Assembly: GCF_001956985.1 (NCBI RefSeq)
Contig: NZ_CP019082.1
Span: 1,674,001 to 1,738,000 of the forward strand
Length of the DNA: 64,000 bases
DNA from: Paludisphaera borealis
GTDB taxonomy: Bacteria; Planctomycetota; Planctomycetia; Isosphaerales; Isosphaeraceae
Direction: 5' to 3'
Of the stretch, positions 27,071 to 30,793 are shown piece after piece (within the stretch, counting starts at the first letter, position 1; the number at the start of each line of letters is the position of its first letter). The notes below the pieces were generated by a model. It ran no database searches. It was not told where the DNA came from and was given only the letters and a program-made list of their open reading frames with translations. Made by a program: the position numbers and the translations under genes.

Positions 27071-27493
<423 letters not shown>

Positions 27494-28166
27494 GGAGCGG
27501 CTTTCCTCGAAGAAATGGAGACGGGGACGACCTCCATGTCGTCCACCGGCGAACCTCGGCATGAGGTCGCGCCGGTCCCCTCTCCTGATCAACGACCCCA
27601 GGATCAGGAGAGAAGGGCCGTACTCGGGTACGCATCAATGTTCGCTAGTCTTTGGTGCTCGCGTTCGCTCCTTGCCTGAACGGGTGAGTCGTCACTTCGA
27701 CTTGTGAAAATCAAGCCAAAGCGTGCGTCGTGTTCGGGGCTGGAATCGACAGTCGCCGTATCAATGATACGACGGGGCGCGACGCCCGAACCGGATCGAA
27801 TCGATCCTGGCGCGGGAATCTCAACGTGCGAGTCGGGCTGTGTCGGTCGATGCGGATTTCGGGGTGGGCGAAGGGGCCGGCGCGCCGCGCCTGATCGAAG
27901 TCGGCGCGGGGGTCGCTTCGCCTACGAGAGCAACAGATGACCCGGGAGTAAGGCTGTTGTCAAGGATGCAGCGACTCGAGGGCGGTCCCACGTAATGAAC
28001 ACGCCGACACGACTTCAGCGGGTAAATGAGGTTCGTCCAAGACGTTGTGATCCGGGCGGAAAAAATGCAAAGAACGAAGAATCCGTGAAACGTGTGCCGG
28101 CCCGGCCCGGGAACGAATCCCCGGACGCGGGCCGGTCGGTTGGTCAGTCGGACCAAAGCGGTCGCG
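27494..28166. other. Long intergenic region, no gene seen
   Basis: 673 nt between the YjbQ gene and the 3' end of the SbtA-like gene, both leftward. Apart from the hairpin at 28097-28135 and a palindromic GTATCAATGATAC near 27758-27770, I find nothing coding: open frames on both strands are short, Arg-rich and without ribosome sites. Confidence 0.5.
28097..28135 (-). terminator. Hairpin after the SbtA-like gene
   Basis: Read leftward, CCGGCCCGCGTCCGGGG pairs imperfectly with CCCGGGCCGGGCCGG across a 7-nt loop, about 30 nt after the stop codon. Very GC-rich, no T-tract. Confidence 0.5.
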
Positions 28167-29714
28167 TCAGGCGAGTGGGAAGCTTCTCGTCACGGCCTTG
28201 GCGATCTCCATGTAGACCGGGATGCCGATGGTGACGTTATACGAGAAAGTCAGACCGAGCGAGGCGGCCAGGGGCAACGTCGGGCTCGCTTCGGGGATGG
28301 CCAACCGCTGCACGGCGGGCACCGCGATGTACGACGACGACCCGCAAAGCACGGCGAAGAGAACGTAGGTGCCGGGCTCGAAGTGGGTGCCGGTCGCCCA
28401 GGCGTAGGTGTGGGCGACGAGGATGCCGATGGTCGCGAACAGGTTGGGCGCGAGGATGCCGTAGGCCACGAAGGCCCATCCGGCGGTCTTCAGGTCCTTC
28501 AGCTTGCGGCTGGCCGTCATGCCCATTTCGAGCAGGAAGAGGCAGAGGATGCCCTGGAAGAGGGTGACGAAGAAGCTGTCGTCGGCGCGCGTCACTTCGG
28601 GGCCCTGGATGCCGCTGATCAGGCCGATGACGATGCCGCCGAAGAGGAGGTACAACCCGGTGTTGAGGAACACCTCGTGGAGCAGTTTGCCGGTGAAGAT
28701 CGGGGTCTTCTTGTTCGGGTGCCCGCCGTTGGCGTCGGGGTGCTCCATTTTCTCGAGCGACATTTCTTCCTCGGGACGACTCTCGACATCGTGGCCGCCG
28801 CCTTCGCCGTGTCCCGTGTCAACCACATGCTTGATCGGCCGGGCATTGGGCTCGTAGCCGGCCTCCTCGGGCATGTTGCCGAGCGGGTCCATACCCGAGT
28901 GCCGCAGCCGGGCGACGAGGTACAGGGCCACGAGGCAGCCGGGGATTTCCATGACGGCCAGCATGACCGGCATGTACGCGTCGTAGACGACGTGGGCCGT
29001 CGCCAGGACGCCGAGCGTGGTGACGAACGTGCCGGCCGAGTCCGAGCCGTAATACCCCGCCACGGTCGCCTTGTCGATCCGCCGCATCCGGGTCGTCGCC
29101 GAGAGGATCATGTAGGCGAGGATGCCGATGACCGTGTTCGTGAGGAAGCCCACGCCTATAAAGCCGACGATCGACTTGATCTGACCTGGGTCGAGGTGCG
29201 CCAGCTCCTCGCCGCCGTGCCAGCCGATGGCGATCAGCAGGTAGATCGTGAGCGCCTGGTACATCACGTACGGGAATTCGAAGTGGACCTTCAGGATCGG
29301 GACCAGGAACCCGAGGTAGAAGAACAGCAGCAGAGGCTTGAACAGGTTGTGCTTGAAGTTGTGCCAGAAGTCTTCGAGGATCGACTTGCCCCCGGCCTCG
29401 GGGGACGCCGTGGCGGTCGGCTCGGCGACCGTGATCGCCGCGGCCGTGATCGAGTCGGCGATCGTGACCTCGGACCCCACCTTGAGGTCGCGGATATTCG
29501 GCGCAGCGCTCTTGGAGCTGCCCAGCGACGTCGACTTGGTGTAGTTCACCACCACGTCGCGATCGTTCTTCGCGTCATGGACGATGATCCGAGAATTGGC
29601 CGCGTCGACGGATTTGACCGTCCCACGCAGGTCGTCCGCCAGCGCCGGCAGCCCCACGATCGTGAGGGCGACCAGGGTTGTCGCCAGGATCTTGGGTGAA
29701 AGCACGAATTTCAT
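28167..29714 (-). CDS. sbtA: SbtA-type sodium-dependent bicarbonate transporter with extra N-terminal domain
   Basis: 515 residues, longer than the ~370 of cyanobacterial SbtA. Residues 1-26 are a signal peptide (ending LPALA). Residues 27-95 form a small beta domain ('LRGTVKSVDAANSRIIVHD', 'VVVNYTKST', 'LKVGSEVTIADS') like DUF5666-type OB folds. From about 113 on comes the SbtA membrane core: 'FKPLLLFFYLGFLVPIL', 'GYYGSDSAGTFVTTLGVL' and 'VLCGSSSYIAVPAVQRLAIPEA', with the ion-site GSDSAG and GSSSY motifs. A His/Glu-rich hydrophilic loop (about 300-355) links the halves. ATG 29714 has AAGGAG. No sbtB-like PII gene or carbonic anhydrase is adjacent. The fused domain is the odd point. Confidence 0.88.
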   Translation of the reverse strand: MKFVLSPKILATTLVALTIVGLPALADDLRGTVKSVDAANSRIIVHDAKNDRDVVVNYTKSTSLGSSKSAAPNIRDLKVGSEVTIADSITAAAITVAEPTATASPEAGGKSILEDFWHNFKHNLFKPLLLFFYLGFLVPILKVHFEFPYVMYQALTIYLLIAIGWHGGEELAHLDPGQIKSIVGFIGVGFLTNTVIGILAYMILSATTRMRRIDKATVAGYYGSDSAGTFVTTLGVLATAHVVYDAYMPVMLAVMEIPGCLVALYLVARLRHSGMDPLGNMPEEAGYEPNARPIKHVVDTGHGEGGGHDVESRPEEEMSLEKMEHPDANGGHPNKKTPIFTGKLLHEVFLNTGLYLLFGGIVIGLISGIQGPEVTRADDSFFVTLFQGILCLFLLEMGMTASRKLKDLKTAGWAFVAYGILAPNLFATIGILVAHTYAWATGTHFEPGTYVLFAVLCGSSSYIAVPAVQRLAIPEASPTLPLAASLGLTFSYNVTIGIPVYMEIAKAVTRSFPLA

Positions 29715-30793
29715 GAAAGACGGCTCCTTGTGTGGAAAACTTGCTCCGTGACGACTGCAATATTCACTCGTCGCGAAGTCAATCCTTGACGTGACAGGTA
29801 CGGGTGAGCCGGGCCTCGATCGCCGAGCCTGGCCAGAGGGGTTTGTGGTGGTCGAGCCGACGCCGCAGGCGCCGTGCTTGCCGATCGGTGGGGGTTCCAG
29901 TCTCCCCCGTGCGTACGGACGACGTACCGCGGCCGAGCCGTCGATGGGACTCGACATCGCCGCAAACTACCCGCGGGCACAATCGAAGCTCAAAAGGTTT
30001 TTCGAAATCCGTAGCCGCCGGTGGACGCTCCGAGACCTCGGGCCGATCGACGATCGGACCATCGACGCTACGGAAAAACCTAGCCGACACGGACTTGCCG
30101 AATCGAACGAGTGGTGTTGGACCGCTCGTGGTCATGCCCGAACCTCTCCATTCGACCGGAAGCAGAACGTCGAGAGAGGCCGGCGGAGGTTGTCGTGGGA
30201 GGGAGGGGACGTCTGCGGCTGGTCCGGAGCGGATCAGCGCGGAGCGGCGCGTCTCAACATCTCAGCGAGGCGCTGACCAGCAAGCGAGGGAATGGGGGAG
30301 TAGACTCGCGACGGCCACGCGGCGGACTCCACGCGAGGCGGTCGACGCCTGCTCGATCGGAGACGCATACCAGGCGGAATTCCGGGTCCGTTACGTCGTC
30401 GTCGTCTTTTTCAAACGCGACGCCGTGCGACAGCATCCCGCGGGATGAGCGACAGGGGGACGAGTGCCGGTGTTCCGGGTCGATGAGGCGGCACGGCGAA
30501 CTTGCCACGCGCTGAAGCTCGCGCGAAGTTCGCTTTTCAGGCGCGTGCGGAGCGGCCCGTTCGAGTTGGCACGCCAGAAAAGCAAAGACGAAGGCCAGCG
30601 TGATTTTCATGGTTGCGATGGAGATCGTTCACCAGCAAAACACGAGGAGGCGAGACAATAGCTTCATCAGCCCGCGTGGATTCTGAACGAGTTTTAGTCT
30701 AAGGCGTGTCGTCTTTCAGGTCAATCGCACAGCGCAAACAACCGACATGGACGCTCCCTCGCATCACCGCGATTCAGCCTTTCGGAGGGCCGT
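29715..30793. other. 1.1-kb region without a convincing gene
   Basis: Between two leftward genes. Several overlapping frames exist on both strands, none with a ribosome site plus recognisable motif. The best is 30254-30610 on the minus strand (118 aa), which begins with a signal-like 'MKITLAFVFAFLACQ', but its upstream sequence has no ribosome site and the rest is low-complexity Arg/Ser. It may be a remnant. The SbtA promoter should lie near the left edge. Confidence 0.45.

Follow-up and report, generated by a model that had tools for sequence, protein, structure and literature searches.

An SbtA-type transporter core fused to a predicted, probably periplasmic OB domain in Paludisphaera borealis and other Isosphaeraceae

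Results

A single gene encodes an N-terminal extension and a transporter core

The window analyzed here, a 64,000-nucleotide stretch of the Paludisphaera borealis genome, contains an sbtA-like gene at positions 28167–29714 on the minus strand. The gene encodes 515 amino acids plus a stop codon, with no inner stops in the translation, and its reading frame, a match to the Sbt_1 family, and structural models point to an OB domain fused to an Sbt_1 core. No second Sbt_1 copy is present in the P. borealis genome; an NCBIfam search of the 515-residue protein returned no match. A ribosome-binding site, AAGGAG (29724–29729, minus strand), is located 9 nt 5' of the ATG at 29714. The original prediction, that a signal peptide and a β domain of ∼70 residues stand ahead of a full SbtA-type core, was confirmed as one gene.

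A misread start, or two separate genes of which the first would specify residues 1–110 as a free secreted protein, was evaluated as an alternative. Stand-alone relatives of the domain with signal-like starts occur in the Isosphaeraceae, and one such relative (L190, E = 9.4e-16) is present in the P. borealis genome, as this alternative would have it. However, the sbtA-like frame contains no further ATG upstream of residue 151, nor any GTG or TTG in that region preceded by at least four bases of ribosome-binding consensus, and a missed internal start is therefore unsupported. The frame is also continuous in 18 Isosphaeraceae copies, which rules out a sequencing artefact. The split gene was rejected after this survey of start codons and ribosome-binding sites, and we regard it as extremely improbable.

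A YjbQ/UPF0047 gene (window 27071–27517, minus strand) lies downstream of the sbtA-like gene. Such a gene was present in the stretch around sbtA at 7 of 41 loci (the window, L062–L065, L068, and L088), the carriers including genomes G001–G004, G021, and G289; we know of no functional link between the two genes. The opposite strand carries an open frame of 535 codons (window 28092–29699, plus strand), which is typical for GC-rich DNA and improbable as coding sequence.

The core has the fold of SbtA

Residues 127–505 match Sbt_1 (PF05982) with an E value of 1.6e-99 and 333.6 bits, against a curated cut-off of 27. The nearest solved protein by sequence is Synechocystis SbtA (E = 2e-19), whose start aligns to residue 109–112 of the window protein; the first ∼110 residues are therefore extra. 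An AlphaFold2 model of the full-length protein (31 sequences, pLDDT 72, pTM 0.69) contains ten membrane helices in two inverted five-helix repeats, with TM4 and TM9 broken as in SbtA. When the full model was compared with the PDB using Foldseek, five SbtA entries were the only matches at E ≤0.001. VIA-align gave Z scores of 34.4–37.7 for SbtA entries and 21.7 for the next fold, the best superposition being with 8zor (Synechocystis SbtA; Z 37.7, 2.5 Å over 324 residues), and identity to SbtA in the structural alignments is 20–22%. The profile match and the superposition both back the original assignment, and we conclude that the window protein contains an SbtA-type core.

The first half of the core (residues 112–275; 28890–29381, minus strand) comprises an amphipathic helix and TM1–5, with the broken TM4 at residues 212–239 and Ser226 equivalent to SbtA Ser114. 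The second half (residues 341–515; 28170–28694, minus strand) comprises TM6–10, with the broken TM9 at residues 447–472; Ser461 and Ala464 are equivalent to SbtA Ser324 and Ser327, respectively. The halves are joined by a central loop (about residues 276–341; 28695–28889, minus strand) that is mostly disordered, with pLDDT values below 50 at residues 295–335 of the model. As originally described, this loop is long and rich in His and Glu (5 His and 10 Glu in 66 residues). It is longer than that of SbtA; the Synechocystis loop, Ser166–Trp212, is likewise missing from the structure (PMC8352866). The His/Glu content probably reflects ordinary loop composition. Table 1 of PMC8396727, the part of that source relied on here, lists the Sbt_1 family as N-out, with eight helices and two broken helices. 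This topology would make the central loop cytoplasmic, and positive charges are found in loops that it places inside (three Lys/Arg in TM3-4 and four in TM7-8).

The N-terminal part is a probable signal peptide followed by a predicted OB barrel

The putative signal peptide (residues 1–26; 29637–29714, minus strand) ends PALA/DD, with the cleavage site placed by eye, and contains a helix at residues 7–21 in the AlphaFold2 model. Signal-like starts, again judged by eye, are kept in many relatives. It is followed by the predicted OB-fold domain (residues 27–98; 29421–29636, minus strand), which is probably exported, and by a variable linker (residues 99–111; 29382–29420, minus strand) with pLDDT values below 50 at residues 99–110 of the model. 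An external, periplasmic location of the domain, as first proposed, is probable given the signal peptide and the N-out topology tabulated for Sbt_1 (PMC8396727, Table 1), with which the positively charged loops agree.

The VIA comparison of the full model bore little on the N-terminal part, which was therefore also folded alone. The resulting model of a 76-residue piece (pLDDT 84) shows residues 27–98 as a barrel of five or six strands (model positions 5–13, 18–23, 28–33, 39–42, 58–62, and 69–73). Four CusF entries ranked first in Foldseek (E 2.5e-4 to 8.6e-4), and VIA gave Z scores of 8.7–9.1 for CusF, the best over 63 residues at 1.7 Å, versus ≤8.2 for other OB folds. By sequence, the domain has a weak match to SilF (E = 0.023). 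CusF_Ec was matched in Pfam by 4 of 15 domain members (best E = 0.0034) and DUF5666 by 1 of 15 (E = 2.4e-4), whereas the window domain itself had no Pfam match, including to DUF5666, CusF_Ec, and DUF1344, at E ≤0.1. Structure prediction of the two parts of the protein, which the original prediction had called for, thus returned an SbtA-type fold for the core and, for the N-terminal domain as modelled, an OB fold closest to CusF/SilF.

The metal ligands of CusF and SilF are a His, a Trp, and two Met residues, and the aligned SilF sequence shows a W-x-x-M-x-M segment. Residues 27–98 of the window protein contain no Met, Trp, or Cys, and their single His varies among relatives; the domain therefore has no CusF-type metal site, and copper or silver binding was rejected. 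The only invariant residues in the domain alignment A4 are Gly31, Asp37, and Gly80 (protein numbering), which by their kind are likely structural, and no conserved pocket or metal ligands were seen in that alignment.

Divergence was compared along the protein. Between the window copy and six relatives (four genus members, G011, and Aquisphaera insulae), identity is 17–23% in the linker and 19–43% in the signal peptide. Among 13 pairs in all, eight same-genus pairs gave pN/pS values of 0.46–0.86 for the domain versus 0.09–0.44 for the core halves; values were 0.12 for the domain versus 0.06–0.07 for the core in the closer G014/Singulisphaera acidiphila pair, and 0.44 for the domain in the G021/L114 pair. 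The domain is constrained yet lax in its evolution.

The fused form is common in the Isosphaeraceae

A nearly complete core of the window branch was found in 27 of 45 Isosphaeraceae genomes, as 28 copies. The OB domain is present in 18 of these, in tandem in two (G013 and G440). Five copies (G007, G018, G023, G425, and G434) have a signal-like start followed by a low-complexity segment, and five consist of the core alone, G435 being counted here from its match range of 121–509 and its frame of 390 amino acids. The count leaves out contig-end fragments (G015, 26 residues; G008:C189, 55 residues) and, in G008 and G426, copies of the short type. G024 gave no match. The A4 profile itself includes rows from the scored copies G000, G003, G004, G011, G013, and G016 and from G424, G438, G430, G431, and G426 (L110, L112, L114, L115, and L113, respectively); G001, G002, G014, G021, G423, G429, and G440 lie outside its rows, some with near relatives in it. 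The homologue search thus corrects the idea of a one-off fusion: the arrangement is common in the Isosphaeraceae, and the extension is a common SbtA variant to the extent that it is the usual form inside this family. We found no description of the fused form in the literature searched, which covers few subscription papers.

Sbt_1 matches above the cut-off occur in 66 of 392 planctomycete genomes. In another planctomycete family, G365 (L077) and G371 (L078) encode a different signal-bearing domain ahead of SbtA, which resembles RcpC/CpaB with E values of 2.1e-4 and 5.1e-5, both below the Pfam cut-off; at both loci the fusion adjoins an SbtB-like gene. A tandem exported barrel-like pair precedes SbtA in the SZAS MAGs L121 and L183, and hhalign gave a probability of 26% between the OB domain and this pair. 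Long frames ahead of sbtA in G222 and G372, the two judged, look like fusions, but were read as chance frames in GC-rich DNA; a motif search of the G188 stretch returned no frame. At L097 (G412), what is apparently a decayed sbtA copy spans ∼100 codons and is interrupted by an in-frame stop.

A mycobacterial clade is nested among the Isosphaeraceae-type proteins

The tree used has 51 rows and is midpoint-rooted; a preceding 66-row tree had truncated and very long rows. Duplicates (L064, L065, L066, L116, and L127) and a fragment (L097) were dropped. L117, L126, and G010 were also left out, as were 14 short-type rows, and the 59 mycobacterial loci were reduced by 48. Forty-six rows were untrimmed, and columns filled to less than 70% were removed, hence most of the N-terminal part.

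The mycobacterial loci account for 59 of the 80 kept (323 found in a GTDB-based collection) and lie within L119–L188. Their proteins, from Mycobacterium and Mycolicibacter, have 55–68% identity in the best segment and are apparently core-only; no SbtB or carbonic anhydrase was found in the DNA flanking the 59 loci. The 11 mycobacterial tree rows form one clade (100/98) within the Isosphaeraceae-type clade (100/98), joined to the OB carriers (100/95). This pattern is most simply explained by a single transfer to mycobacteria, from a donor resembling the Isosphaeraceae, in which the domain was lost; the direction of the transfer is taken from nesting in a midpoint-rooted tree. At L140 and L146, the mycobacterial sbtA adjoins a hemN-like gene followed by sulfite reductase and cysH-like genes (read by eye).

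No SbtB match in P. borealis, and SbtB-like genes in the sister clade

No SbtB was found near the window gene, as had been stated originally, and the SbtB-type profile A1 had no match in the whole P. borealis genome. The two P-II matches in that genome (L107 and L108) we take to be of the canonical GlnB type, by eye and from a distinguishing loop motif. The profile does detect an SbtB-type gene beside a short-type sbtA in G008, another member of the Isosphaeraceae. In a search of 40 genomes, it had no match in the ten that carry the OB domain (G000–G004, G011, G013, G014, G016, and G021), and no PII-like gene was seen at OB carriers whose flanks were read. In the sister clade (support 77/59), a PII-like gene is close by in 11 of 11 tree rows. 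Searched against the PDB, the sister-lineage PII profile scored best with TTHA0516, SbtB, and other PII-like structures, with GlnB/GlnK ranking far lower. PII-profile matches inside the SbtA frames of L076, L088, and L098 were excluded from the SbtB count as spurious overlaps, because some of the seed frames crossed sbtA in the wrong reading frame.

These data do not support a simple swap of SbtB for an exported domain. The two occur together in G365, G371, and L183, where a tandem domain and an SbtB-like gene are adjacent, and both are missing within about 7.7 kb at L074, L079, and L080; the genome of L074 (G027) gave one weak match to A1. On the tree, SbtB adjacency changes three times and the N-terminal type eight times. 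The originally implied connection, that the domain is there because SbtB is not, is weakened accordingly.

The substrate pocket differs at two of four positions

The Na+ site of SbtA is formed by backbone atoms of Phe110, Gly111, Ala112, Ala320, and Ser322, and bicarbonate was docked to Ser114, Tyr140, Ser324, and Ser327; alanine at any of these four contact positions leaves about 10–40% activity (PMC8352866). Two of the four contact residues are kept in the window protein. The Ser114 and Ser324 equivalents, Ser226 and Ser461, are invariant in 24/24 rows of A2 and 31/31 rows of A3, two overlapping sequence sets, and so is the Na+-site Gly. Leu252 and Ala464 take the places of Tyr140 and Ser327 in every row of both sets, so the pocket is unlike the cyanobacterial one. 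Ala also occupies the Ser327 position in 13 of 14 short-type planctomycete copies, including two in SbtA-PII-carbonic anhydrase clusters. The sole exception, L091 (G388), retains Tyr and Ser as in cyanobacteria and lies beside a PII-like gene; a second copy in G388 has the variant pocket. By sequence, the variant pocket is thus the usual one in the planctomycete copies examined, among them some that adjoin carbonic anhydrase. The contacts were assigned by docking in a single paper, and the Ala is shared by 13 of the 14 short-type copies. We therefore classify the protein as Sbt_1 from its profile match and fold and claim no more than SbtA-like function; with two of the four contacts changed, bicarbonate is a putative substrate.

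Inorganic-carbon genes in P. borealis and near other sbtA copies

The original prediction had taken a bicarbonate transporter in a heterotroph as a hint at carboxylation needs. That hint is supported in part. The P. borealis genome has no RuBisCO match, but it contains five Pro_CA matches (two partial) and three biotin carboxylase matches, one of them within a pyruvate carboxylase (1,733 bits versus a cut-off of 965). This pyruvate carboxylase gene is divergent from, and at most about 0.4 kb away from, a carbonic anhydrase gene whose start resembles a signal peptide (G000:C1:4009369-4013945, L201). One DabA homologue (G000:C1:6026464-6029307, L195) is a second possible inorganic-carbon system. 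With pyruvate carboxylase, carbonic anhydrase, and DabA present and no RuBisCO match, an anaplerotic bicarbonate supply would be a sensible role. A role of sbtA in anaplerotic inorganic-carbon fixation has been proposed for heterotrophic marine flavobacteria (PMC5932025, in the accessible part of that source).

A search up to 8 kb from the window sbtA-like gene revealed no carbonic anhydrase. One is close to sbtA at 4 of 41 loci (G011, G315, G353, and G371) and in two Gimesia MAGs. Inside the OB clade the link is confined to one genome, G011 (L179), where a co-directional β-carbonic anhydrase follows the OB-fused sbtA by ∼0.2 kb if it starts at its first or second ATG. The gene order is SbtA-CA-SbtB in the two Gimesia MAGs and SbtA-PII-CA in G371 and the same-genus pair G315 and G353. 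In that pair (L089 and L090), the carbonic anhydrase has a twin-arginine-like start (by eye), which suggests an exported enzyme coupled to the symporter.

Discussion

A probable bicarbonate symporter with a putative periplasmic adaptor

Taken together, we favor with moderate confidence a Na+-coupled bicarbonate symporter that would serve anaplerotic carboxylation and carry its barrel as a structural or adaptor module, not as a ligand sensor. Judging from its fold, the protein would most likely be a trimer working by the elevator mechanism described for SbtA, and the bicarbonate brought into the cytosol would be delivered to carboxylases such as pyruvate carboxylase. The signal peptide is predicted, from the sequence and from the N-out orientation tabulated for Sbt_1, to export the OB domain, which would put one small barrel per subunit on the periplasmic face. 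Each barrel would be tethered by the flexible linker just ahead of TM1 of the gate domain, where it may aid folding and insertion, cap the trimer, or provide a docking point for a periplasmic partner. Control by SbtB, apparently present in the sister lineages, would be absent in P. borealis. The best reading of the domain is a fast-evolving, dispensable periplasmic adaptor.

The evidence against bicarbonate itself is the invariance of Leu252 and Ala464 in A2 and A3, together with the missing carbonic anhydrase around the window gene and the restriction of that link to a single genome inside the OB clade. Bicarbonate is scarce in acidic wetlands, and the origin of P. borealis from such a habitat, given in the accessible part of PMC5352709, is likewise counted against the symporter. 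The protein could instead be an SbtA by fold only that moves another small anion, for instance formate or a carboxylate akin to it, or that exports its substrate; this would account for the two altered contact positions, and it has a precedent in Shewanella SO_3758, an Sbt_1 protein of a heterotroph linked to formate tolerance, for which the authors' modelling favors efflux (PMC12093963, accessible part). However, the same Ala at the Ser327 position in nearly all short-type copies, including those clustered with carbonic anhydrase, and the presence of carbonic anhydrase near sbtA in six distinct genomes argue the other way, and we consider a different substrate rather unlikely. Two Sbt proteins of Thiomicrospira pelophila rescue an E. 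coli strain lacking carbonic anhydrase (PMC12628692, accessible part).

Two other roles for the N-terminal part were weighed against an adaptor. The OB domain could be a periplasmic sensor or regulator that replaces the lost cytosolic SbtB and sets the transport rate upon binding an ion, bicarbonate, or a protein. Its CusF/SilF-type barrel is a fold used in periplasmic ligand binding, A1 matches are missing from the ten OB-carrying genomes while an SbtB-like gene accompanies every row of the sister clade, and other exported domains occupy the same place (RcpC-like in G365 and G371, tandem barrel-like in L121 and L183). Against this stand the few invariant residues, which are probably structural, the missing metal site, the coexistence of an exported domain with SbtB in G365, G371, and L183, and the several branch members that have neither. 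Ligand sensing, one of the roles first proposed, is further weakened by the lack of a conserved pocket, by the faster evolution of the domain relative to the core, and by its replacement or absence in 10 of 28 family copies; we regard a sensor as improbable. Alternatively, the signal peptide might be what matters, forcing N-out insertion of TM1, with the exported stretch acting as filler that could take the form of a barrel or a disordered run or be missing altogether. The five copies with a low-complexity segment in place of the barrel and the poorly conserved linker and signal peptide would fit such a role, but five family copies have no signal-like start, and mycobacterial and most sister-lineage copies appear to begin at the core. 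The barrel is also in tandem in G013 and G440 and under purifying selection in the Singulisphaera pair, which is unexpected for filler, and this explanation too is doubtful. On a broader view, planctomycetes may have repeatedly fronted SbtA with exported globular domains, giving regulation from the periplasmic side that replaced SbtB in the Isosphaeraceae, and mycobacteria would have received the transporter and dropped the domain; we hold this to be quite unlikely. An adaptor remains our preferred role for the barrel.

Relation to known systems

The fused protein is a variant of a known transporter and not a new kind of system. It shares with SbtA (slr1512 of Synechocystis PCC 6803; 7cye, 7cyf, 7egl, 8zor; TC 2.A.83) the ten-helix 5+5 fold with broken TM4 and TM9, the backbone positions of the Na+ site, the equivalents of Ser114 and Ser324, and a disordered central loop. 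It differs in its added signal peptide and OB domain, in a longer central loop, in having Leu and Ala for Tyr140 and Ser327, and in that no SbtB was found in the P. borealis genome. In sister planctomycetes, PII-like regulators of the SbtB type lie near members of this transporter branch. The OB barrel is common to the CusF/SilF chaperones and DUF5666-type small domains, to which the sequence match is weak; unlike CusF and SilF, the window domain has no metal-binding Trp or Met and is fused to a transporter. The Sbt of Thiomicrospira pelophila (PMC12628692), Shewanella SO_3758 (PMC12093963), and flavobacterial sbtA (PMC5932025) are all SbtA-type proteins outside cyanobacteria, and the accessible parts of these three sources mention no exported N-terminal domain, a distinction drawn from the descriptions and not from the sequences.

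In the papers found, SbtA has been studied mainly in cyanobacteria and together with SbtB. The planctomycete and mycobacterial branch, often without SbtB, with a changed pocket and often with an exported domain, offers a natural comparison for the contributions of SbtB, of the pocket residues, and of the periplasmic face, and it points to bicarbonate import as part of anaplerosis in heterotrophs.
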